Virus record (IMG/VR): IMGVR_UViG_3300045778_000157
Coordinates: 1 to 58,994 of that record
From: a virus
Length of the DNA stretch: 58,994 nt
Direction: 5' to 3' (one strand)
In this document: positions 24,489 to 58,994 of the stretch, piece after piece
Layout: the number at the start of each line of letters is the position of its first letter
Position numbering within the stretch: the stretch's first letter is position 1
Position numbers and translations under genes: made by a program
Notes under the pieces: model-generated
The model's database searches: none
Seen by the model: the letters and a program-made list of their open reading frames with translations, nothing else
What the model was told of the DNA's origin: nothing

Positions 24489-24653
24489 TCAACGCTCCAG
24501 TGACGCGACGGCGTGGATCAGTTCCTCGTCCACGGCCTCGTGGGCCGCCGTGGCTTCCGTGAATTCGCGGATGCGCCGCTTCATGTCCTCGGTCGCCTGG
24601 CGGACGACATCCGCCTGTTGCGCCTGCTTGCGCGCTTCGAGTTCGTCCGTCAT
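24489..24653 (-). CDS. Small coiled-coil-like protein
   Basis: 54 aa, rich in Glu, Ala and Arg, predicted helical throughout (DELEARKQAQQADVVRQATED). Start coupled by ATGA to the DNA methyltransferase stop. It may assist or regulate the methyltransferase, but that is only inferred from position. Confidence 0.6.
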   Translation of the reverse strand: MTDELEARKQAQQADVVRQATEDMKRRIREFTEATAAHEAVDEELIHAVASLER

Positions 24654-25966
24654 GCCTTGCCCTTTCCAGCCTTGGCCGTCAGTCGCGCGTTCGGATTGCG
24701 CCGCGCCATCACCTCGACGAAGGTCTCGCCCGTCTCTTCCAACGTGGCAACGCCGCCCGAAAAGTTCTGCCAGCGCGTGGCGATGACGTCGACGAACACA
24801 GGGTCCTTCTCCGCAACCCTTGCGCGGCGCCCGTGCTTCTCGCAGGCGACGAGGGTCGAGCCGCTGCCGCCGAACAGGTCGAGGACGACGGCCCCGCGCT
24901 TCGACGAGTGCAATATCGCGTGTTCCGGCACGGCCACGGGCTTCTCGGTCGGGTGGTCCGTCTCGGCCTGCTTCCTGCCGATCGTCCAGGTGGACAGGGC
25001 GTGGCCCTCGGCGGGGGAGTTGAAGGTGTGCCTGCCGCGAGTGGCGTAGCAGATCAGTTCGTTGTCCCACGTCCAGTGCCGCTTCATGAGGCTCGGCATG
25101 GGGTTCTTCTTCTGCCACACGCAAGCCGAGACGTGCGAGGCCCACGTCTCCATCCACGCCCATATGCTCCCGGCGAGGTGGTGCGAGGTGCACACGTAGA
25201 CCGTTGCGTCGTCGGCGAGGTGCAGCGCGAAGGACTGCTCCACGGAGGCGAAAACGAATCCCTTGTCCCACTCGGACGCGGCGAGGTTCTTGTAGGCCTT
25301 CCGCACGTTCTTCGCCACGAGGTCGTCGCCCGAGGCGTGGTTGTATGGCGGGTCGGTGAACACCATGTCGGCCTTGTCGCCCGCCATGAGGATCGCCACC
25401 GCGCCGACGTCGGTCGAGTCGCAACAGGCGAGGCGGTGGTCGCCCAGTATCCACACGTCGCCGTCGCGCGAGATCGCGCTGTCGCCGGCGGCCGGCGTCT
25501 CGTCCTCGTCGGTCTGGCCTTCCTTGGCCTCGTCCTCGTCGGCGCCGAACAGATCCTTGAGGAAGTCGCCGTCGAGGCCGGTCAGTTCGAGGTCGAACTC
25601 CATGCCCTGCAAATCGGCGAGTTCGAGCTTCAAAAACTCGGTGTTCCAGTCCGAGCCGTTGAGCGCGATGGCGTTGTCGGCGATGACGTAGGCCCGCCGC
25701 TGCGCCTCGCTCCAGCCCCGCGCCACCATGGCGGGAACCGTGGCGATCTTCAGCTTCTTCGCCGCGAGGATGCGCCCGTGGCCGGCGATCAGGGTGTTGT
25801 CCTCGTCCACGAGGATCGGCATCGTCCAGCCGTATTCGAGGATTGACTTGGCGATGAGGTCGATTTGCGCCGGCGTGTGGGTCCGCGCGTTTCTTGCGTA
25901 GGGCAGCATGTCCACGACGCTGCGCCGCTCCACCTTGTCGGCGGGCCAAAGAACCTCATTTCCCAT
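24650..25966 (-). CDS. DNA methyltransferase with ParB-like N-terminal domain
   Basis: 438 aa. The N-terminal ~90 residues are ParB/Sulfiredoxin-like (IDLIAKSILEYGWTMPILVDEDNTLIAGHGRILAA). Next come an acidic linker and a beta-class amino-methyltransferase domain with catalytic DPPY near residue 205 and the AdoMet-binding LDLFGGSGST near 360. The DPPY-first order is that of N6-adenine or N4-cytosine enzymes, including CcrM. It probably modifies phage DNA to evade restriction or to mark promoters. The target sequence is unknown. No partner nuclease gene is seen. Confidence 0.85.
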   Translation of the reverse strand: MGNEVLWPADKVERRSVVDMLPYARNARTHTPAQIDLIAKSILEYGWTMPILVDEDNTLIAGHGRILAAKKLKIATVPAMVARGWSEAQRRAYVIADNAIALNGSDWNTEFLKLELADLQGMEFDLELTGLDGDFLKDLFGADEDEAKEGQTDEDETPAAGDSAISRDGDVWILGDHRLACCDSTDVGAVAILMAGDKADMVFTDPPYNHASGDDLVAKNVRKAYKNLAASEWDKGFVFASVEQSFALHLADDATVYVCTSHHLAGSIWAWMETWASHVSACVWQKKNPMPSLMKRHWTWDNELICYATRGRHTFNSPAEGHALSTWTIGRKQAETDHPTEKPVAVPEHAILHSSKRGAVVLDLFGGSGSTLVACEKHGRRARVAEKDPVFVDVIATRWQNFSGGVATLEETGETFVEVMARRNPNARLTAKAGKGKA

Positions 25967-33311: not shown

Positions 33312-33589
33312 TGGCGCGCCACTTCGCCACGGCCACCCTCCACGACGTCGAACACCCGATCTACGTCCGGGACGACGGCTCCCTGATCTGCGATTGGCCG
33401 GACGGCGACCTCACCGACCTGTCCGCCGACGATTCGGACTCGGACGAAAGGATCGCCCGCGCCTTCCTCAACGAGGCGTTCTGCGTCGTCCGTGAAATGG
33501 ACCACTCTCTCGTCTCGCCTTACGGGCTTGAATCCGCCGTCTCCGCCCTGTGGGCCGAGGTCGTCATCACAAGGGTAGAAACACCATGA
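33311..33589 (+). CDS. Small hypothetical protein between SNF2 and Dcm genes
   Basis: 92 aa. It overlaps the helicase stop (TGATG) and the methyltransferase start (ATGA), so the three are coupled. The front has a strand pattern (FATATLHDVEHPIYVRDDGSLICDW); the rest is acidic and helical. Unrecognised. Confidence 0.68.
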   Translation: MARHFATATLHDVEHPIYVRDDGSLICDWPDGDLTDLSADDSDSDERIARAFLNEAFCVVREMDHSLVSPYGLESAVSALWAEVVITRVETP

Positions 33590-35220
33590 ACTACGTCAGC
33601 GTATGCAGCGGGATCGAGGCCTGTTCGGTCGCATGGAAGAGCCTCAAGGGATGGAAGCTGTTCGGGGTGGCCGAGATCGCGCCGTTCCAGGCCAACCTCC
33701 TGAAGGCCAAGTATCCCAAGGCGATGAACTGGGGCGACTTCACGAAAATCCCGGGCCACGAGGCCGAATACGACCTTCTCGTCGGCGGCACCCCGTGCCA
33801 GTCCTACTCCGTGGCGGGCTCCCGCGGCGGCAAGGACGACCCTCGCGGCAACCTCGCCTTCGAGTTCGTCCGCCTCGCCGACCGCATCGACACGGGCCGC
33901 AAGTGGCGGAAGAAGGAGGGCGGAGCCGTGCTGTGGGAGAACGTCCCGGGCGTCCTCACCATGGATGACAACGCCTTCGGCTGCTTCGTCGCCGACCTCG
34001 CCGGCGTGGAGGAGCCCTTCGTCGGGCCGAGGAAGAAGCCGGACGGCAAGGCGCCGTCGTGGACGGACTGCGGCTTCGTCGTCGGCCCGCGCCGCGCCGT
34101 GGTCTGGCGCGTCCTCAACGCCCGCCACTTCGGGGTCGCCCAACGCCGCTCCCGCGTGTTCGTGTTCGCGGCGCCGGCCGCAAACGCCCAGGCCGTCCTC
34201 TCCACCCTCATCGAGGGCGACACCCTGCTTTGCGAGGCGCACGAACCCGCCGCCGGGGCCGAATGGGAGCGGCGCGCCAAGGGCTTCGCCCACGTGTCGC
34301 ACCAGCACGGGTGCCAGATCGTCTGCTACGCCCCGTCGAAGAAGCCGACGCTGCTGCCGCTGATCGTCGGGAGCCAGCCCGCCGACCCAGTCCGCGCCGT
34401 CCTCGCCGACGTCCTGCAAGCCGACGCGCACGCCAAATACGCCCTCTCAGCCGATGGCTGTCAGGGCGTACTCAACCGCTCGGAGCGGCGCGCCAAGTCA
34501 ATGCCTCCGCTGCTGCGCTGGGTGCTTGAGTGCCAGGCCAATGGCGTTCCCGCGCTGTCTGTCGTGCGCGCCGGAGACCCGCGCTTCGACGGCATGGCCT
34601 TCAAGCCGAACCAGTCCTCGTCCGCCCGCAGCGACGGCGTGGAGATCGGCGTCTCCCCGACGCTGGAGACGGCGAGCGGCGGCAACAACGTACCAGCCGT
34701 CCTCGAAGGATTCCGCTTCTTCAAGAGCCGCGACTTCGGAGAATATGCGGATGACGCCATCGCCTCCACGGTCATGGCGCAAGCCTCCACCCTCACCCAC
34801 CGCGCCGCCGTTGAGTCGTCAGACCTCGTCTGCACCGCCGGCGACGTCAGCGGCACCCTGTGCGCGTCCGGTGCCGGACTCGACCGCGCAGCGGGACAGG
34901 GCAACGAGGTGGATTTCATCGTCGGACAGGGCAACGAGGTGGTCTACAGGTGGCGGGTGCGGCGGCTGACGCCGACAGAGGCCGAGCGGCTCCAGGGATT
35001 CAAGGACGGGTGGACCGACGTTCCCTTCCTCGGCAAGCCCGCGTCCGACACGAGGCGTTATTCAGCGATCGGAAATTCCATGGCCGTGCCGGTCATGCGC
35101 TGGATCGGGGAGCGCATCGAGGCGCGCTACGGCGAGCATCGCGCCGTCCGCGAAAAGCCCGCCAAGCCGCCGAGGAAAATAGTGCCGACCCTGTTCGATT
35201 TCCTCGTCGAAGTCGCTTGA
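33586..35220 (+). CDS. DNA cytosine-5 methyltransferase
   Basis: 544 aa. Motif I-like V-C-S-G-I-E-A near residue 8, catalytic G-G-T-P-C-Q-S-Y with Cys71, motif VI ENV at 118-120, QRRSRVF near 190, and a C-terminal R-R-L-T-P-T-E-A-E-R-L-Q-G-F and A-I-G-N-S-M-A-V-P-V. A long variable region (about 230-440) forms the target-recognition part. It methylates cytosine C5, probably for protection from host restriction. ATGA coupling to the previous gene. The target is unknown. Confidence 0.9.
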   Translation: MNYVSVCSGIEACSVAWKSLKGWKLFGVAEIAPFQANLLKAKYPKAMNWGDFTKIPGHEAEYDLLVGGTPCQSYSVAGSRGGKDDPRGNLAFEFVRLADRIDTGRKWRKKEGGAVLWENVPGVLTMDDNAFGCFVADLAGVEEPFVGPRKKPDGKAPSWTDCGFVVGPRRAVVWRVLNARHFGVAQRRSRVFVFAAPAANAQAVLSTLIEGDTLLCEAHEPAAGAEWERRAKGFAHVSHQHGCQIVCYAPSKKPTLLPLIVGSQPADPVRAVLADVLQADAHAKYALSADGCQGVLNRSERRAKSMPPLLRWVLECQANGVPALSVVRAGDPRFDGMAFKPNQSSSARSDGVEIGVSPTLETASGGNNVPAVLEGFRFFKSRDFGEYADDAIASTVMAQASTLTHRAAVESSDLVCTAGDVSGTLCASGAGLDRAAGQGNEVDFIVGQGNEVVYRWRVRRLTPTEAERLQGFKDGWTDVPFLGKPASDTRRYSAIGNSMAVPVMRWIGERIEARYGEHRAVREKPAKPPRKIVPTLFDFLVEVA

Positions 35221-38173: not shown

Positions 38174-39265
38174 ATGGAACCCACCCGAACCCCCGAGACG
38201 GACGCCGCGTATCTCTTCGCGGGAAAGCGGCATCTGCGCCGCGCCAAGGCTGCGCGCCCCGACCTGACGGACTTGGACGACCTTCTGATCGCCCTCGTCG
38301 AGGACGACCTTTCGGTGCTGAAGCCGTCCACGTCGCGGCTCTACAAGGCCGAATTGCTCTCCGTGCTGCGCTGGGCCGTGGCCGAGGGGAAGCTGTCCCA
38401 GGCGGCTTCCACGGCGGCTGCGGAGCGCATCGCCCGCGCCCTGTTCGGACGTCGCGGAACCCCCGAGCGTCGGCTGGCGTCGAAGAAGGTGCGGGACGCG
38501 AGGGAGGACGAGATAACGAAGGTGCTGCACCACCTCATCCACACCTCCAGGGGCCGCACCTCCGATCAGATGGCCGTCGATGGCATCCTCCCGCTGTGGC
38601 TGATCGTCGCCCCCCGCGTCGGGCTGCGGCCAATCGAATGGACGACCGCCAGGGTCGAAGGCAAGTTCGTGGTCGTCCAGTGCGCCAAGGCCACCAACGG
38701 GCGCGGCGCGGCCAAGGTGCGGCGGGTCGACCTGTCCGCGATGGAGAAGCGGGTGCGCGAGGGAACCGCCGTGTTCTGCCGCGCCTTCCCCGCCGCCTTG
38801 GCGCGCCACGAGGGCGACTGGAAGGCGTTTCGCAAGGTCTTGGCGGAGCGCCTCGCCCGCGCCTGTCAGACGTGCGGGGTGCGGCGCCTGTCGCTCTACA
38901 CCTTCCGCCACGTCGCGCTGTCCACGTGGAAGGCCGCGGGCCTGGACAAGGAAGTGGTCGCCGCCCTCGCCGGCCACGCCTCCACCGAGACCGCCGTGCA
39001 ATACGCCCCGGGCAAGGCGGGGTGGAAGAACCAGAGCCTCCCCAAGCCGGAGTCCGCGCTCGTCAGGAGGATCGCCGAGGCCAACGGCATCGCCGGAGAC
39101 CCCGACTTCGGCGCCGACGACGACGTTTCCGCCGACGCCGCCTCCTACGATTACGACTACACGCCGGAGGCCGAACTCAACCCCGATATCGACGGGGAAG
39201 AGTTGGACTGGCGCCACGACCTTGAGGACTACGCCGCCGACGAGCCGGACGTTCCCGAAGAGTGA
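38174..39265 (+). CDS. Tyrosine recombinase (integrase-like)
   Basis: 363 aa. The catalytic domain has R in G-L-R-P-I-E-W (about 150), a F-R-H at about 244-246 in place of the usual H-x-x-R, then G-H-A-S-T-E-T-A-V-Q-Y with the tyrosine near 277. The first His of the box is replaced by Tyr (L-Y-T-F-R-H). The N-terminal ~110 residues fit a SAM-like core-binding domain. It suggests lysogeny. The acidic C-terminal ~60 residues after the Tyr are unusual. Confidence 0.78.
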   Translation: MEPTRTPETDAAYLFAGKRHLRRAKAARPDLTDLDDLLIALVEDDLSVLKPSTSRLYKAELLSVLRWAVAEGKLSQAASTAAAERIARALFGRRGTPERRLASKKVRDAREDEITKVLHHLIHTSRGRTSDQMAVDGILPLWLIVAPRVGLRPIEWTTARVEGKFVVVQCAKATNGRGAAKVRRVDLSAMEKRVREGTAVFCRAFPAALARHEGDWKAFRKVLAERLARACQTCGVRRLSLYTFRHVALSTWKAAGLDKEVVAALAGHASTETAVQYAPGKAGWKNQSLPKPESALVRRIAEANGIAGDPDFGADDDVSADAASYDYDYTPEAELNPDIDGEELDWRHDLEDYAADEPDVPEE

Positions 39266-46093: not shown

Positions 46094-46348
46094 ATGAAGA
46101 GCGATCTCGTCGATCTGGAACTGGCGGTCCACCACGAAACCGAAAAGGCCGTCCACCACGAAACCGAAAAGGCCGTCCTCGTCTCGGAGACGGGCGACAG
46201 GGCCAAGGCCGTGTGGCTCCCGCTTCAGGCGTGTGAGGTGGAATACAAGCCGATCACCGGCTGCATGGTCGGAGGGCGCAAGCGTCCGTTCCGCCTTGCC
46301 ACGGTGACCATGCGCGAGTCCCTCGCCGTGGAAAAGGGACTCGCATAA
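46094..46348 (+). CDS. Small protein with duplicated octapeptide
   Basis: 84 aa from the ATG at 46094 with GGAGGGG upstream (an ATG at 46082 overlapping the ATPase stop is possible). It contains V-H-H-E-T-E-K-A twice in a row, encoded by a perfect 24-bp tandem repeat (46127-46150 and 46151-46174). The second half is strand-rich. Function unknown. Confidence 0.65.
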   Translation: MKSDLVDLELAVHHETEKAVHHETEKAVLVSETGDRAKAVWLPLQACEVEYKPITGCMVGGRKRPFRLATVTMRESLAVEKGLA

Positions 46349-46353
46349 AGGCA

Positions 46354-46412
46354 GAAACCTAGGGGGAGCAATCCCCCGATGGTCGCGCCGTCACGCGGCG
46401 CCCGTCGAGGCC
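46354..46412 (+). ncRNA. Two-hairpin RNA-like element, copy 1
   Basis: GGGGGA-GCAA-TCCCCC (46362-46377, GNRA-type loop), CGATGGTC, then GCGCCG-TCACG-CGGCGC (46385-46401), then GAGGCC. The same layout occurs at 48877-48935 with compensating changes in the second stem. It lies between two genes of the recombination operon. Confidence 0.65.
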
Positions 46413-46445
46413 AAGCACGTCGGACACAAGCAAGGGGAGCCTATC

Positions 46446-46961
46446 ATGGGCATGTCGGGACTTCAGAACTGCAAACAGGGCGTCTACAACCTCTCCGAAG
46501 GCTCGGAGTGGGCGGACGTCGCGCTGGACGACGCCGCCAACGCCATCGCCGCCAAGTGGAAGGAGATCCACGACTTCGGCGGACTGGACGACGACGAGCG
46601 GCGCATCATGGTCCGCTTCGCCGAACTGTTCCACATGCCGCAGCACGTGTGGGGCCGCATCGAATGGCACTACGAGTTCGACGCGGGCGACTTCCTGTTC
46701 GCCGTGCCGCTCAACGACCGCACCCGCGACGTGACGTTCGCCGACGTCTCCCGCGTCGAGGTGCTGGACGATGAAGGGGAGACCATCGGCTACGTGGCCG
46801 GCGACCTGTTCCGCGCCGTCCAGGCCGCTCCGAGCGGCTGCGACAGGCTCAAGGAACTCGCCTCGTCCCTGCTGACCTTCCACAACACGGGATTCGACAG
46901 CGGGAAAGAGGCCGGCGCGAAGGATCTGCGTTGTAAGCTGCGGAGCCTCCTGGATATCTAG
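46446..46961 (+). CDS. Hypothetical protein
   Basis: 171 aa, ATG at 46446 with AAGGGGAGC upstream. Features: N-C-K-Q-G-V-Y-N-L-S-E-G-S-E-W near the front, a helical DDAANAIAAKWKEIHDF, a beta-rich R-I-E-W-H-Y-E-F-D-A-G-D-F-L-F-A-V-P middle, and a helical end. Acidic overall. Not recognised. Just before a strong terminator. Confidence 0.65.
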   Translation: MGMSGLQNCKQGVYNLSEGSEWADVALDDAANAIAAKWKEIHDFGGLDDDERRIMVRFAELFHMPQHVWGRIEWHYEFDAGDFLFAVPLNDRTRDVTFADVSRVEVLDDEGETIGYVAGDLFRAVQAAPSGCDRLKELASSLLTFHNTGFDSGKEAGAKDLRCKLRSLLDI

Positions 46962-46988
46962 CTATCCGCAACATCGATGGCGCGAAAC

Positions 46989-47014
46989 CGAGGCGGGGTC
47001 GTCCCGCCTCTTTT
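46989..47014 (+). terminator. Intrinsic terminator
   Basis: GAGGCGGG-GTCGT-CCCGCCTC followed by TTTTT. It ends the first part of the recombination operon, 28 bp after the stop at 46961. Confidence 0.9.
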
Positions 47015-47049
47015 TATTCAAGAATCGTTGTCATTGTCCTTAAATAACT

Positions 47050-47078
47050 GTTGACGGTTTCTCCGATCAGATTCATAA
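47050..47078 (+). promoter_or_regulatory. Promoter for the exonuclease-Rad52-SSB genes
   Basis: TTGACG (47050-47055), 17 bp, CATAAA (47073-47078), same form as the promoter at 44719-44747. AATAACTGTTG overlaps the -35. GANTC at 47021-47025 and 47069-47073. Confidence 0.65.
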
Positions 47079-47122
47079 ATGGACCGTCGCTGCCAAGAGC
47101 GACGCAGCCAAAGGGAACCCAC

Positions 47123-47359
47123 ATGTATCTCAACGCCACCACCAACCGCTTCGGACTGCCCGTGCCGGAAGGCATGGAATACTCCAAGCTGCACCCCGCC
47201 GACCGCTGCATCCGAGACGCGGACGGCGCGACCGGCCGCGTCCGCGCCCTCGTCTGGCAGGACACCGGCGACATTTCCTTCCTCGTCTACTTCGACAACG
47301 GCGAGAATGCCGTGTGCGGATACGACGCGGTTTCCTCCACCCTCGCGCACAGGAACTGA
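47123..47359 (+). CDS. Small hypothetical protein
   Basis: 78 aa, ATG at 47123 with AAGGGAA upstream. It has G-L-P-V-P-E-G-M-E-Y-S-K-L-H-P and a beta-strand end (FLVYFDNGENAVCGYDAV). It leads the exonuclease operon. Unrecognised. Confidence 0.65.
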   Translation: MYLNATTNRFGLPVPEGMEYSKLHPADRCIRDADGATGRVRALVWQDTGDISFLVYFDNGENAVCGYDAVSSTLAHRN

Positions 47360-47365
47360 GCCGCC

Positions 47366-48124
47366 ATGAGCAAGCCCGACCTCTTCTTCGACATTGAGAC
47401 CGGCCCGACCGACAACCAGGCCATCATCGACGCGGCCATCGCCGCCATCGAGGCGCCCGCCAACTTCAAGGACGCCGACAAGATCGCCGCCTACAAGGCG
47501 GACAAGGCCGCGTCCGTCATCGACAAGCTCGGCCTGGACGCGACCACGGGCCGCATCGTCTCGCTCGGCTGGGCGGTGAACGCGGACGAGCCTACGGCCA
47601 TCCGCTGCGCTTGCCACCGCGACGAACTGTTCCACGCGGTCGACGGCGCCCAGGTGCTGAGGAACCCGAAGTTCGCCACCACCGATTCGGCGGAGAAGGC
47701 CAACCTCGAACGCTTCTTCCGCCTCGTCGCCGAGCGTCTCGACCGCGACGACGTGGACTCCGACGAGCCGCGCATCGTTGGCCACTACGTCGGCTCGTTC
47801 GACGTCAAGTTCGTGGCGCAGCGCGCCATGATCCTCGGCGCGGCCCTCCCCGCGTGGTGGCCGATGGCCCCGAAGCCGTGGGGCAACGAGATCCTGGACA
47901 CCCGCCTCGTCTGGACGGGCGGCAACAACCAGGAGCATATGAAGCTTGACAAGCTATGCCGCGCCCTCGGCCTCCCCGGCAAGGGCGACGTCGACGGCTC
48001 CGACGTGGCGCGCCTGTTCGCCGAGCGCAAGTTCGACGAGATCCTCGCCTACAACCGAGACGACGTCGCCAAGGTGCAAGCCGTCGTCGCCCGCTTCCGC
48101 ATCGCCTACGGCGACCGCATCTGA
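47366..48124 (+). CDS. DEDD-type 3'-5' exonuclease
   Basis: 252 aa. Acidic catalytic motifs in order: F-D-I-E-T (8-12), H-Y-V-G-S-F-D-V-K near 142-150, and Y-N-R-D-D-V-A-K near 230. This is a DnaQ/PolB-exonuclease-like fold (DEDDy). Seven bases after the previous stop and followed by the Rad52-like gene, so it probably processes DNA ends for annealing. Confidence 0.82.
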   Translation: MSKPDLFFDIETGPTDNQAIIDAAIAAIEAPANFKDADKIAAYKADKAASVIDKLGLDATTGRIVSLGWAVNADEPTAIRCACHRDELFHAVDGAQVLRNPKFATTDSAEKANLERFFRLVAERLDRDDVDSDEPRIVGHYVGSFDVKFVAQRAMILGAALPAWWPMAPKPWGNEILDTRLVWTGGNNQEHMKLDKLCRALGLPGKGDVDGSDVARLFAERKFDEILAYNRDDVAKVQAVVARFRIAYGDRI

Positions 48125-48138
48125 CAGGGGTTTCAGCC

Positions 48139-48870
48139 ATGTTCACCAAGGAACAGATCAAGGAACTCCAGGCGCCGTTGAGCCGCCAGAGCGTCAAGAT
48201 CCGCAGCCAGTCGGGCCGCACCCTGTCCTACATCGAAGGATGGCATGCCATCGCCGAGGCCAACAGGATCTTCGGCTTCGAGAACTGGGACCGCTCCACC
48301 GACGAACTGCGCCTCGTCTCCGAGCGCGCCCGCAAGATCGGCAAGGACGCCAAGGACGGATGGAGCGTCAGCTACATCGCCAAGGTCCGCATCACCGTCA
48401 TCGCGGGGGAGCGCGTCGTCGTCCGCGACGGCACGGGCAGCGGCCACGGCATCGACGTGGACTGCGGCCTGGCGCACGAAAGCGCGATCAAGGAAGCCGA
48501 GACGGACGCCATGAAAAGGGCGTTGATGACTTTTGGCAACCCGTTCGGCTTGGCCCTTTACGACAAGGAACAGAGCGACGTCTCGAACGAGTCCACCGCG
48601 CAGCGTCAGGAGCGCGAACAGGCCGCTGAGGCCTACGTGAAGGGCGCGGCCTCGTCCGTCGCCGCCTTCCGCGCCATCCCGCCGCTGAAGGCGTGGTGGG
48701 ACGCCCAGGGGGCCGAGCGCGTCCGCCTCGGCATCCTGAAGGGAACCCCCCACTTCGCCGTCCTGTGGGACGCGTTCGTGGCGAAGGGGTCGGCCCTGAA
48801 GGCCGCTGCCGAAGCCGCGCCCGCCGAGCCGGACGAATACGCCCAGCAGGCGCCGGAAGAGACGTTCTAA
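48139..48870 (+). CDS. Rad52-like single-strand annealing protein
   Basis: 243 aa. The N-terminal core K-I-R-S-Q-S-G-R-T-L-S-Y-I-E-G-W-H-A-I-A-E-A-N-R and F-G-F-E-N-W near residues 20-50, then H-G-I-D-V-D-C-G-L-A-H-E-S-A-I-K-E-A-E-T-D-A-M-K-R-A, is characteristic of the Rad52/Rad22 annealing domain. The C-terminus is Ala/Glu-rich. It would anneal single strands coated by the phage SSB. Confidence 0.88.
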   Translation: MFTKEQIKELQAPLSRQSVKIRSQSGRTLSYIEGWHAIAEANRIFGFENWDRSTDELRLVSERARKIGKDAKDGWSVSYIAKVRITVIAGERVVVRDGTGSGHGIDVDCGLAHESAIKEAETDAMKRALMTFGNPFGLALYDKEQSDVSNESTAQRQEREQAAEAYVKGAASSVAAFRAIPPLKAWWDAQGAERVRLGILKGTPHFAVLWDAFVAKGSALKAAAEAAPAEPDEYAQQAPEETF

Positions 48871-48876
48871 CAGGCC

Positions 48877-48935
48877 GAAACCTAGGGGGATTCTTCCCCC
48901 GATGGTCTTGCCGTCACGCGGCAACCGACGAGGCC
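48877..48935 (+). ncRNA. Two-hairpin RNA-like element, copy 2
   Basis: GGGGGA-TTCT-TCCCCC (48885-48900), CGATGGTC, then TTGCCG-TCACG-CGGCAA (48908-48924), then GAGGCC. Compared with copy 1 the two outer stem pairs change from G-C and C-G to T-A and T-A, so pairing is kept. It is just ahead of the ssb gene. Confidence 0.68.
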
Positions 48936-48966
48936 GTCGGAATTCCACAACACAAGGAAGCTAGTC

Positions 48967-49434
48967 ATGTCGCTCAACAAGTTCACCGCCATCGGCAACC
49001 TCGGGCGCGACCCCGAGGTCCGCAACCTCAACAACGGGAAGAAGGTCGTGTCCTTCAGCCTCGCCACCACCGACAGCTGGAAGGACAAGGCCTCGGGCGA
49101 GTGGAAGAACCACACCGAGTGGCACAACGTCGTGATCTTCAACGAGAACCTCGGCGGCGTCGCAGAGAGGTTCCTGAAGAAGGGGTCCAAGGCCTACATC
49201 GAAGGCAAGCTGAAGACCCGCAAGTTCACCGACAAGAACGGCGCCGAGCGCAGCGTCGTCGAGATCGTCATGGAGGCCTTCAACGGCGCCATCGAACTGC
49301 TGGACAAGAAGGAGGGCGGCTCGGCCCCCGCGCAGCACTCCGACGCGCCCGCCGACGACCGCTCCGCGCCCGCGCAGAAGGCGCAGCCGCAGTCCACGGG
49401 CCGCCTGGCGTCCAACGACGACATCCCGTTCTGA
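48967..49434 (+). CDS. ssb: Single-stranded DNA-binding protein
   Basis: 155 aa. OB-fold start N-K-F-T-A-I-G-N-L-G-R-D-P-E-V-R, W-H-N-V-V-I-F near 52, Y-I-E-G-K-L-K-T-R-K-F near 75, a Pro/Ala/Gln linker from 110, and the acidic tip D-D-I-P-F. Complete and typical. ATG with AAGGAAG upstream. Confidence 0.95.
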   Translation: MSLNKFTAIGNLGRDPEVRNLNNGKKVVSFSLATTDSWKDKASGEWKNHTEWHNVVIFNENLGGVAERFLKKGSKAYIEGKLKTRKFTDKNGAERSVVEIVMEAFNGAIELLDKKEGGSAPAQHSDAPADDRSAPAQKAQPQSTGRLASNDDIPF

Positions 49435-49454: not shown

Positions 49455-49474
49455 GAGGGGGAGCGATCCCCCTC
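49455..49474 (+). other. Hairpin after ssb with GCGA tetraloop
   Basis: GAGGGGGA-GCGA-TCCCCCTC, 8-bp stem with a GNRA-type loop, followed by TTCTC. The core matches the first hairpin of the two-hairpin elements, but the second hairpin is missing. It could be a weak terminator. Confidence 0.6.
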
Positions 49475-58486: not shown

Positions 58487-58906
58487 CTATTCGGGGGCGC
58501 GGAAGGCGATGGCCCTGCGGAGTCCGTAGACGCCGAATCCGACCCTGTGGTTGTGGTTGCCCGACAGGAGCGTGACGGAGTCGCCGTGGACCGCCGTGAC
58601 GACGCCGATGTGGTGCGCCATCACCATCACCGCGCCTGGCGCGGGGTGGGTCGGACGGCCCCAGCGCGCCCAGTCGGAGGCCTTGTCGGACGGCATGGGG
58701 GAATATCCCGCCGCCCTCGTCCAGATCCGCATCTGCGCGGCGCACCACGGCCCCTTTTGCGGGGTGTGGTTGCCCTTGCCTATGTCGCGTTTCGCAACGG
58801 AGACGATGGCGGAGGCCTGAAGCTGAGGCCTCGCGCCCGTCGTCTCGCATCCGGCCAGCGCGACGGTCGCGAGGATCGCCGCGCCAAGGTGAACCGCCCT
58901 CGTCAT
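58487..58906 (-). CDS. Lipoprotein peptidoglycan hydrolase (TIGR02594-like)
   Basis: 139 aa. Signal peptide with lipobox A-L-A-G-C near residues 16-20. The rest matches the small NlpC/P60-like layout: W-C-A-A-Q near 53-57 (catalytic Cys), P-A-P-G-A-V-M-V-M-A, H-I-G-V-V-T near 99 (His), and G-N-H-N-H. It starts in the terminal overlap and is coupled to the small Ala/Pro-rich gene. A lysis or entry role is possible; lipid anchoring of such a hydrolase is unusual. Confidence 0.72.
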   Translation of the reverse strand: MTRAVHLGAAILATVALAGCETTGARPQLQASAIVSVAKRDIGKGNHTPQKGPWCAAQMRIWTRAAGYSPMPSDKASDWARWGRPTHPAPGAVMVMAHHIGVVTAVHGDSVTLLSGNHNHRVGFGVYGLRRAIAFRAPE

Positions 58907-58994
58907 TACGACGTGGGGATGGTCACCGCGAGGGCCGGAGCCTCGGTTGCGGCGGGGGTGGACGGAGCCTCGGCGGCGGGGGCGGGTTCGGAGG
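58879..58994. repeat. Terminal overlap, right copy
   Basis: 116 bases that repeat 1-134 with an 18-base gap. See the left copy. It indicates a circular or permuted molecule and a length variant in the Ala/Pro-rich gene. Confidence 0.9.

Follow-up and report, generated by a model that had tools for sequence, protein, structure and literature searches.

The 58,994-base virus record IMGVR_UViG_3300045778_000157 (IMG/VR), called the window here in its whole length, carries two copies of a 64-nt element on the plus strand, at positions 46349-46412 (copy 1, upstream of a gene for a 171-aa protein) and 48872-48935 (copy 2, upstream of the gene for the single-strand DNA-binding protein, ssb). The element is very probably a core-variant hammerhead ribozyme with type II architecture (stem II open) and predicted cleavage, which occurs twice in a run of phage recombination and replication genes. 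Judged from its sequence, the feature is real and most likely represents a duplicated core-variant self-cleaving ribozyme placed before two phage genes. Within one gene run, the window thus has a sister copy close to the consensus and another that is further altered, each standing before a single gene. Since such sister copies with an exact predicted cleavage site are available, processing of the ssb message is directly testable. The initial annotation had described a duplicated two-hairpin RNA, possibly a cis-regulatory or processing RNA and perhaps bound by a phage protein. Its proposal of a cis-acting processing RNA is in agreement with the type II hammerhead architecture, whereas no pointer to binding by a phage protein was found, and the ribozyme had gone unrecognised.

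The two copies and their hammerhead architecture

The copies are 2,523 nt apart on the same strand and are identical at 54 of 64 positions in an ungapped alignment. The motifs previously described (GGGGGA-N4-TCCCCC, CGATGGTC, a 6-bp stem with loop TCACG, and GAGGCC) were found in both copies at the coordinates reported for them. The ends of the element had also been placed correctly, at the last base of stem II, but the shared block begins 5 nt before the starts then assigned (46354 and 48877), which correspond to G12 of the GAAA strand. Four of the ten differences between the copies fall in the tetraloop of the first hairpin, two are single sites (columns 5 and 57), and the remaining four are two stem pairs swapped on both sides. 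The latter are the two outer pairs of the second stem, GC/GC in copy 1 and TT/AA in copy 2, and it had rightly been reported that both pairs are kept. Covariation from the two copies alone is weak: 125 of 500 shuffles equal the observed values. The conserved ends AGGC and GGCC pair with each other, which had been overlooked. A 42-nt pattern allowing up to 3 mismatches matched the two copies exclusively within the window and did not match any of 100 dinucleotide shuffles. A two-copy model (R1), in which stem I was included and the ends were modelled as unpaired (no stem II), was run over the window with filters off; it scored the copies at 96 and 95 bits and the next place at 17 bits, which means that a third full copy is absent from the window.

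Each copy lies wholly within a gap between a stop codon and an ATG, which measures 97 nt for copy 1 (the stop ends at 46348 and the ATG is at 46446) and 96 nt for copy 2 (48870 and 48967, respectively). The 5' end of the element is at the stop codon and its 3' end 31-33 nt upstream of the ATG; the two gaps also have letters in common near the ribosome-binding site. A site acting at the DNA level, whether a small mobile repeat with hairpins or inverted repeats to which a protein dimer binds, could be considered, as two perfect inverted repeats are present in each copy and the copies are near each other. The same strand and the same stop-to-ATG position in both cases, the lack of further full copies in the window, and the compensated pairs and end-to-end pairing, which are accounted for by RNA, make such a site extremely improbable.

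The order of the elements in the RNA is stem II 3' strand, GAAA, stem III, NUH, stem I, CUGANGA-type strand and stem II 5' strand. Copy 2 can be written as GGCC-GAAA-(stem III)-GGUC/-(stem I)-CCGACGA-GGCC and copy 1 as GGCA-GAAA-(stem III)-GGUC/-(stem I)-CCGUCGA-GGCC. In copy 2, the stem II 3' strand GGCC (48873-48876; pair counts) is followed by GAAA (48877-48880, G12 A13 A14 A15.1; Rfam alignment and descriptor), by the stem III hairpin extending from A15.1 to U16.1 (48880-48906; fold and Rfam alignment) and by C17 at 48907. The descriptor predicts self-cleavage 3' of this base (GGUC/UUGCC), 59 nt upstream of the ssb ATG. Then come the stem I hairpin TTGCCG-TCACG-CGGCAA (48908-48924; fold and Rfam alignment), the core strand CCGACGA (48925-48931; consensus CTGANGA, with C for U4; Rfam alignment and descriptor) and the stem II 5' strand GGCC (48932-48935; Rfam alignment and pair counts), so that stem II is GGCC/GGCC. 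The corresponding parts of copy 1 are GAAA, which is intact (46354-46357, G12 A13 A14 A15.1; read from the sequence), the stem III hairpin with ACC..GGU around GGGGGA-GCAA-UCCCCC (46357-46383; fold and pair counts), C17 at 46384, 3' of which the descriptor places the cut if the copy is active, the stem I hairpin GCGCCG-TCACG-CGGCGC (46385-46401; fold and pair counts), the core strand CCGTCGA (46402-46408; descriptor) and the stem II 5' strand GGCC (46409-46412; pair counts), whose last 3 bases pair with GGC at 46350-46352.

Three helices, with stems I and III closed and stem II open, are thus present. All 18 pairs are found in both copies when the pair 10.1/11.1 is left aside; with this pair included, 98% of the pair positions stand over three sequences, i.e. 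the two copies and L144, a sequence described below. Both copies have the GAAA strand as well as U16.1 and H17 of the NUH triplet (GGUC). Copy 2 matches 11 of the 12 consensus core positions, the replacement of U4 by C being its sole deviation, and has all three core-adjacent pairs (1.1-2.1, 10.1-11.1 and 15.1-16.1), whereas 10.1-11.1 is G-A in copy 1. The clustering of the copies beside phage genes is likewise a trait of type II hammerheads.

Descriptor and Rfam searches

A descriptor of 12 core positions with no more than one mismatch, a stem I of at least 5 bp and a stem II of at least 2 bp was applied to both strands. In the window it found copy 2 only, also when a stem I of 4 bp was accepted; relaxed to 2 mismatches at most with stem II optional, it gave five places, copies 1 and 2 among them. 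Dinucleotide shuffles of the whole window produced 26 matches in 1,349 (1 in 40 in an earlier set). The four matches in a scan of 923,910 bases of retrieved loci were the window itself (L002), the model-found L144, and L041 and L051, which were unselected. As a blind control, the descriptor recovered the hammerhead of Bcep176 (L165:12172), the sequence of which agrees with the table in PMC7151607. This active variant is missed by cmscan at E values up to 10, and falling short of the Rfam cut-off is therefore not decisive.

When 91 bases around copy 2 were submitted to cmscan, RF02276 (Hammerhead_II) was among the three matches, in the predicted register (12.9 bits, E 2.1). The whole window gave no match to Rfam at gathering score, riboswitches included. 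A search with RF02276 in 50 records including the window resulted in 9 records at E values up to 0.1, none of them above the cut-off and the window not among the 9. The occurrence of two equal-length leaders with conserved unpaired letters, one of them preceding ssb, might also suggest a protein- or ligand-bound cis-regulatory RNA unrelated to ribozymes, such as an RNA for ssb autoregulation or a new riboswitch. STAXI RNA occurs near ssb genes; it was not listed by cmscan, through which alone it was considered. No other Rfam family matched convincingly either, and the conserved positions coincide with the hammerhead core in letter, order and register. A regulatory RNA of this kind is very improbable.

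Relatives of the element

The initial annotation held that a lack of further examples in relatives would speak against the element. Close relatives were not found, whereas one probable distant relative was. Searching 385 genomes from the class of a Hyphomicrobium metagenome-assembled genome (which we take to be Alphaproteobacteria) with R1 gave five matches, the best of which was L144 with 37.8 bits. It carries GAAACC, UGGUC, CCGAUGA and ends that pair, and it was this order that allowed a type II hammerhead to be recognised and then read back onto the window copies. The other four matches have no hammerhead core at up to 2 mismatches. Like the window copies, L144 has GAAA, GGUC, a stem I of at least 5 bp, a core with C at position 4 (C4; CCGATGA) and a 4-bp stem II; unlike them, it has a short stem III, lies near a contig end and has no phage gene seen alongside. 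With the same C4 core, its stem II shows a compensated pair (C-G to A-U), and a loop I-tail pairing of 4-5 bp is possible. On the hammerhead structure, four pairs are changed on both sides over the three sequences. At least as many were obtained in 5 of 500 shuffles, and none in slid versions. As L144 was picked by a model containing stem I, its stem I pairs, unlike the stem II pair, lean towards the structure. It probably represents a second C4 lineage, although as the top match of a large search and with its position near the contig end it could still be due to chance.

A more far-reaching proposal, which we consider unlikely, is that the type II hammerheads of alphaproteobacterial phages and genomes include a C4 sub-lineage invisible to Rfam. 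Its core would be tuned, and not broken, so as to cleave only before the CGTCGG tail folds it away or under particular metals, the separation of the ssb message would be timed or metal-dependent, and the two copies would form a fast and slow pair.

Exact and relaxed DNA patterns matched 0, 1, 7 and 1 stretches of IMG/VR. These matches (L003, L087-L093 and L094) were rejected as chance, their context being unrelated and the second half of the element lacking. The pattern search in GTDB contigs gave 0 matches. BLASTN of the leaders against phages and plasmids (leader 2 only for the plasmids) yielded weak partial matches in 7, 7 and 5 records, with a best E value of at least 0.9. The sole R1 match in 31 of 43 terminase-relative records (L143, 17.2 bits) was rejected, as it falls within a reading frame of the reverse strand and its context is another one; the best R1 match over 89 loci (21.4 bits) was rejected as well. 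A model R2 found 11 places in the same 385 genomes, with a core in L144 only, two matches in 398 genomes of the phylum, neither with a hammerhead core, and none in 36 genomes.

Canonical hammerheads served as a control of the context. In the 385 genomes, RF02276 scored above the cut-off in two genomes (L158 and L161 in one, L159 in the other), with consensus cores. L158 and L159 start at a stop codon and precede an ATG, just like the window copies. The distances from the stop to G12 and from the cut to the ATG are 6 and 61 nt for copy 1, 7 and 59 nt for copy 2, 6 and 53 nt for L158, and 3 and 59 nt for L159. L158 and L161 are near-identical canonical type II ribozymes; they lie on two contigs of the same genome, each ahead of a different gene. 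In L159/L167, a canonical copy is accompanied at a distance of about 330 nt by a closely alike second leader (L167:6053 and about 6384), the GAAA strand of which is changed. These two pairs indicate that duplication of a ribozyme leader, with decay of one copy, occurs elsewhere. A DUF3164 gene lies near L158; this family is known from Mu-like phages. Among 179 genomes of one order, four had RF02276 matches at E values up to 1e-4, two of them above the cut-off; of the three new places, only L175 passes the descriptor, with no flanking reading frames called.

Several results weigh against the assignment of the element to the hammerheads. The strict CUGANGA core is found in neither copy, as copy 2 has CCGACGA and copy 1 CCGTCGA, i.e. 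U4C in both and A6U in addition in copy 1. Neither copy has a loop I-to-3' tail pseudoknot of at least 4 bp; copy 1 reaches 3 bp and copy 2 lacks the pairing, which comprises 6 bp in L158, 5 bp in L159 and 3 bp in the active Bcep176 hammerhead. The pseudoknot is frequent in type II hammerheads, though not universal. The RF02276 score of copy 2 (12.9 bits) falls far short of the 37 bits set as gathering score, copy 1 and L144 had no Hammerhead_II match at E values up to 10, and at the same threshold Hammerhead_II was not listed in a scan of 3,261 bases. The descriptor finds none in PaP3, for which the accessible text of PMC3088659 reports a hammerhead, and is thus incomplete. No close homologue was detected in the IMG/VR, phage or plasmid searches, and L144 is a single match in 385 genomes, near the end of an 18,765-base contig and with the gene beside it (presumably a tctA-like transporter) on the other strand. 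As the CUGANGA core is lacking and the Rfam cut-off is not reached, the element is classed as a core variant, presumably acting in the manner of a type II hammerhead, and not as a consensus member. The A6U change and the 10.1/11.1 mismatch suggest that copy 1 is probably slow or inactive, a decaying duplicate.

Folding and predicted processing

The hammerhead fold is the predicted minimum free energy structure of the 64-nt copy 2 (-29.6 kcal/mol) and is still the best one when 2 nt past stem II are added, whereas an alternative fold of copy 1 is 3 kcal/mol better than its hammerhead fold. A further point against a hammerhead is that at +5 nt a core-burying fold becomes better than the hammerhead fold (-33.9 vs -30.8 kcal/mol). 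According to the folds, a competing hairpin, CCGACG-AGGC-CGTCGG, covers the core of copy 2 (48925-48940), and copy 1 has an imperfect equivalent at 46402-46423. This suggests that cutting must occur during transcription and that the product then refolds without re-ligation.

The stable competing hairpin and the core changes in both copies would also be expected of a dead hammerhead that is retained, or has not yet been lost, as a structured leader, does not cut, and serves through hairpins protecting the message ends or through cutting by a host RNase. L159/L167, where a canonical copy is paired with one whose GAAA part changed, provides a parallel. Nevertheless, a single one of the 12 core positions is altered in copy 2, where the three pairs next to the core are all intact, stem I stays paired despite the differences between the copies, and U4C is tolerated in a viroid according to the accessible text of PMC3088659. 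A dead hammerhead is, in our view, quite unlikely.

For a self-cleaving ribozyme, the following course can be proposed. The transcript would form the GGGGGA hairpin as stem III and the TCACG hairpin as stem I, the ends of the element would come together in stem II, and the core would be built from the strands GAAA and CCGANGA. We infer that copy 2 cuts after GGUC at 48907. The upstream rad52 message would be left with a 3' stem III hairpin, which may stabilise it, and a 2',3'-cyclic phosphate, and the ssb message with a 59-nt leader that has its 5'-OH within the stem I hairpin and in which CCGACG-AGGC-CGTCGG forms the next hairpin. Once CGTCGG has been transcribed, the core strand would refold into the competing hairpin, which would end the time available for cleavage and block re-ligation. 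The probable role of the element is to divide a long transcript into messages for the individual genes.

Two other readings of the leaders were considered. A three-way junction of GAUGG with CCGNC is favoured by energy in copy 1, but an A-A breaks it in copy 2, and it was rejected as the shared fold. A leader peptide starting at the shared ATGG would have 20 open codons in copy 2, but in copy 1 no early stop follows, and the differences between the copies preserve RNA pairs.

Gene context

The 171-aa protein encoded downstream of copy 1 (46446-46961, plus strand) had no relative in homology searches and matched none in family searches; a terminator-like hairpin with a T run, found by a hairpin search, follows its gene at 46990-47010 (plus strand). 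Copy 2 is located between the genes of a Rad52/22-family annealing protein (48139-48870, plus strand; Pfam PF04098, E 2e-36) and ssb (48967-49434, plus strand; Pfam PF00436, E 1.4e-31; phrog_44). The flanking gene run comprises an AAA/SbcC-like ATPase, a PolB-type exonuclease, the Rad52 protein and ssb. The annotation of Erythrobacter phage ZS04 shows a similar gene order, with the ssb start at the end of the preceding gene.

A pattern scan revealed a third hairpin after ssb, GAGGGGGA-GCGA-TCCCCCTC (49455-49474, plus strand), which resembles stem III only. Perfect GGGGGA-N4-TCCCCC hairpins occur just three times in the window, the third at 49457-49472. With AACC ahead of it, it resembles the copy 1 stem III, but nothing else of the element is present. 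The gap after ssb aligned to the element with a score of 30, which none of 2,000 shuffles of the gap reached but random 64-mers of the window did. This hairpin may be a remnant of a third copy, or a terminator or stabiliser.

Elsewhere in the window, an integrase-like protein (38174-39265, plus strand; phrog_1) indicates that the phage is probably temperate. The record ends (1-116 and 58879-58994) are 93% alike over 116 nt, which may reflect repeated tail-gene sequence or an imperfect terminal repeat. ParB-like nuclease and DNA methyltransferase domains are fused in one protein (24650-25966, minus strand). A 556-aa DNA methyltransferase (33550-35220, plus strand), in which the phrog_116 match covers 533 protein residues against about 300 of the profile, suggests a large insertion in this enzyme.

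Comparison with published hammerheads

As described in the accessible text of PMC3088659, type II hammerheads are common in bacteria, their clusters flank single genes in prophages, and core variants are rare. The role of hammerheads in prokaryotes (phages and bacteria) is an open question according to PMC6155905. In the literature searched, supplementary files excluded, no C4 type II hammerhead of phages or bacteria was found; the accessible text of PMC3088659 mentions the change in a viroid only, where U4C lowered the activity in vitro while the viroid was still infectious. Phage hammerheads can escape a scan that insists on the strict core or applies the Rfam cut-off.

Compared with the type II hammerheads (RF02276; Perreault et al. 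2011, PMC3088659, accessible text), the window copies have the same order of strands and stems, a 6-bp stem I as in the Rfam model, an intergenic location in a phage, and clustered copies flanking single genes. They differ in C4, in the A6U change and 10.1/11.1 mismatch of copy 1, in having no 4-bp pseudoknot and in an Rfam score under the cut-off. The Bcep176 hammerhead is similar in that it is intergenic in a phage, has the type II order and one altered core position, and is missed by cmscan, but its change is at position 6 and not 4, it occurs at one place in that genome and its stems are different. This A6C variant is described as weak in the accessible text of PMC3088659 and as active with a preference for Mn2+ in that of PMC7151607. 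The HHphage of haloviruses HF1 and HF2, as far as it is described in the accessible text of PMC3088659, differs in having an insertion near C3 and in belonging to archaeal viruses, whereas the window copies have a substitution and end 31-33 nt before the ATG. It resembles the window copies in being a hammerhead with a variant core that closely precedes an early replication gene; it lies 13 nt before the helicase ATG, with a mapped message end near the cleavage site.

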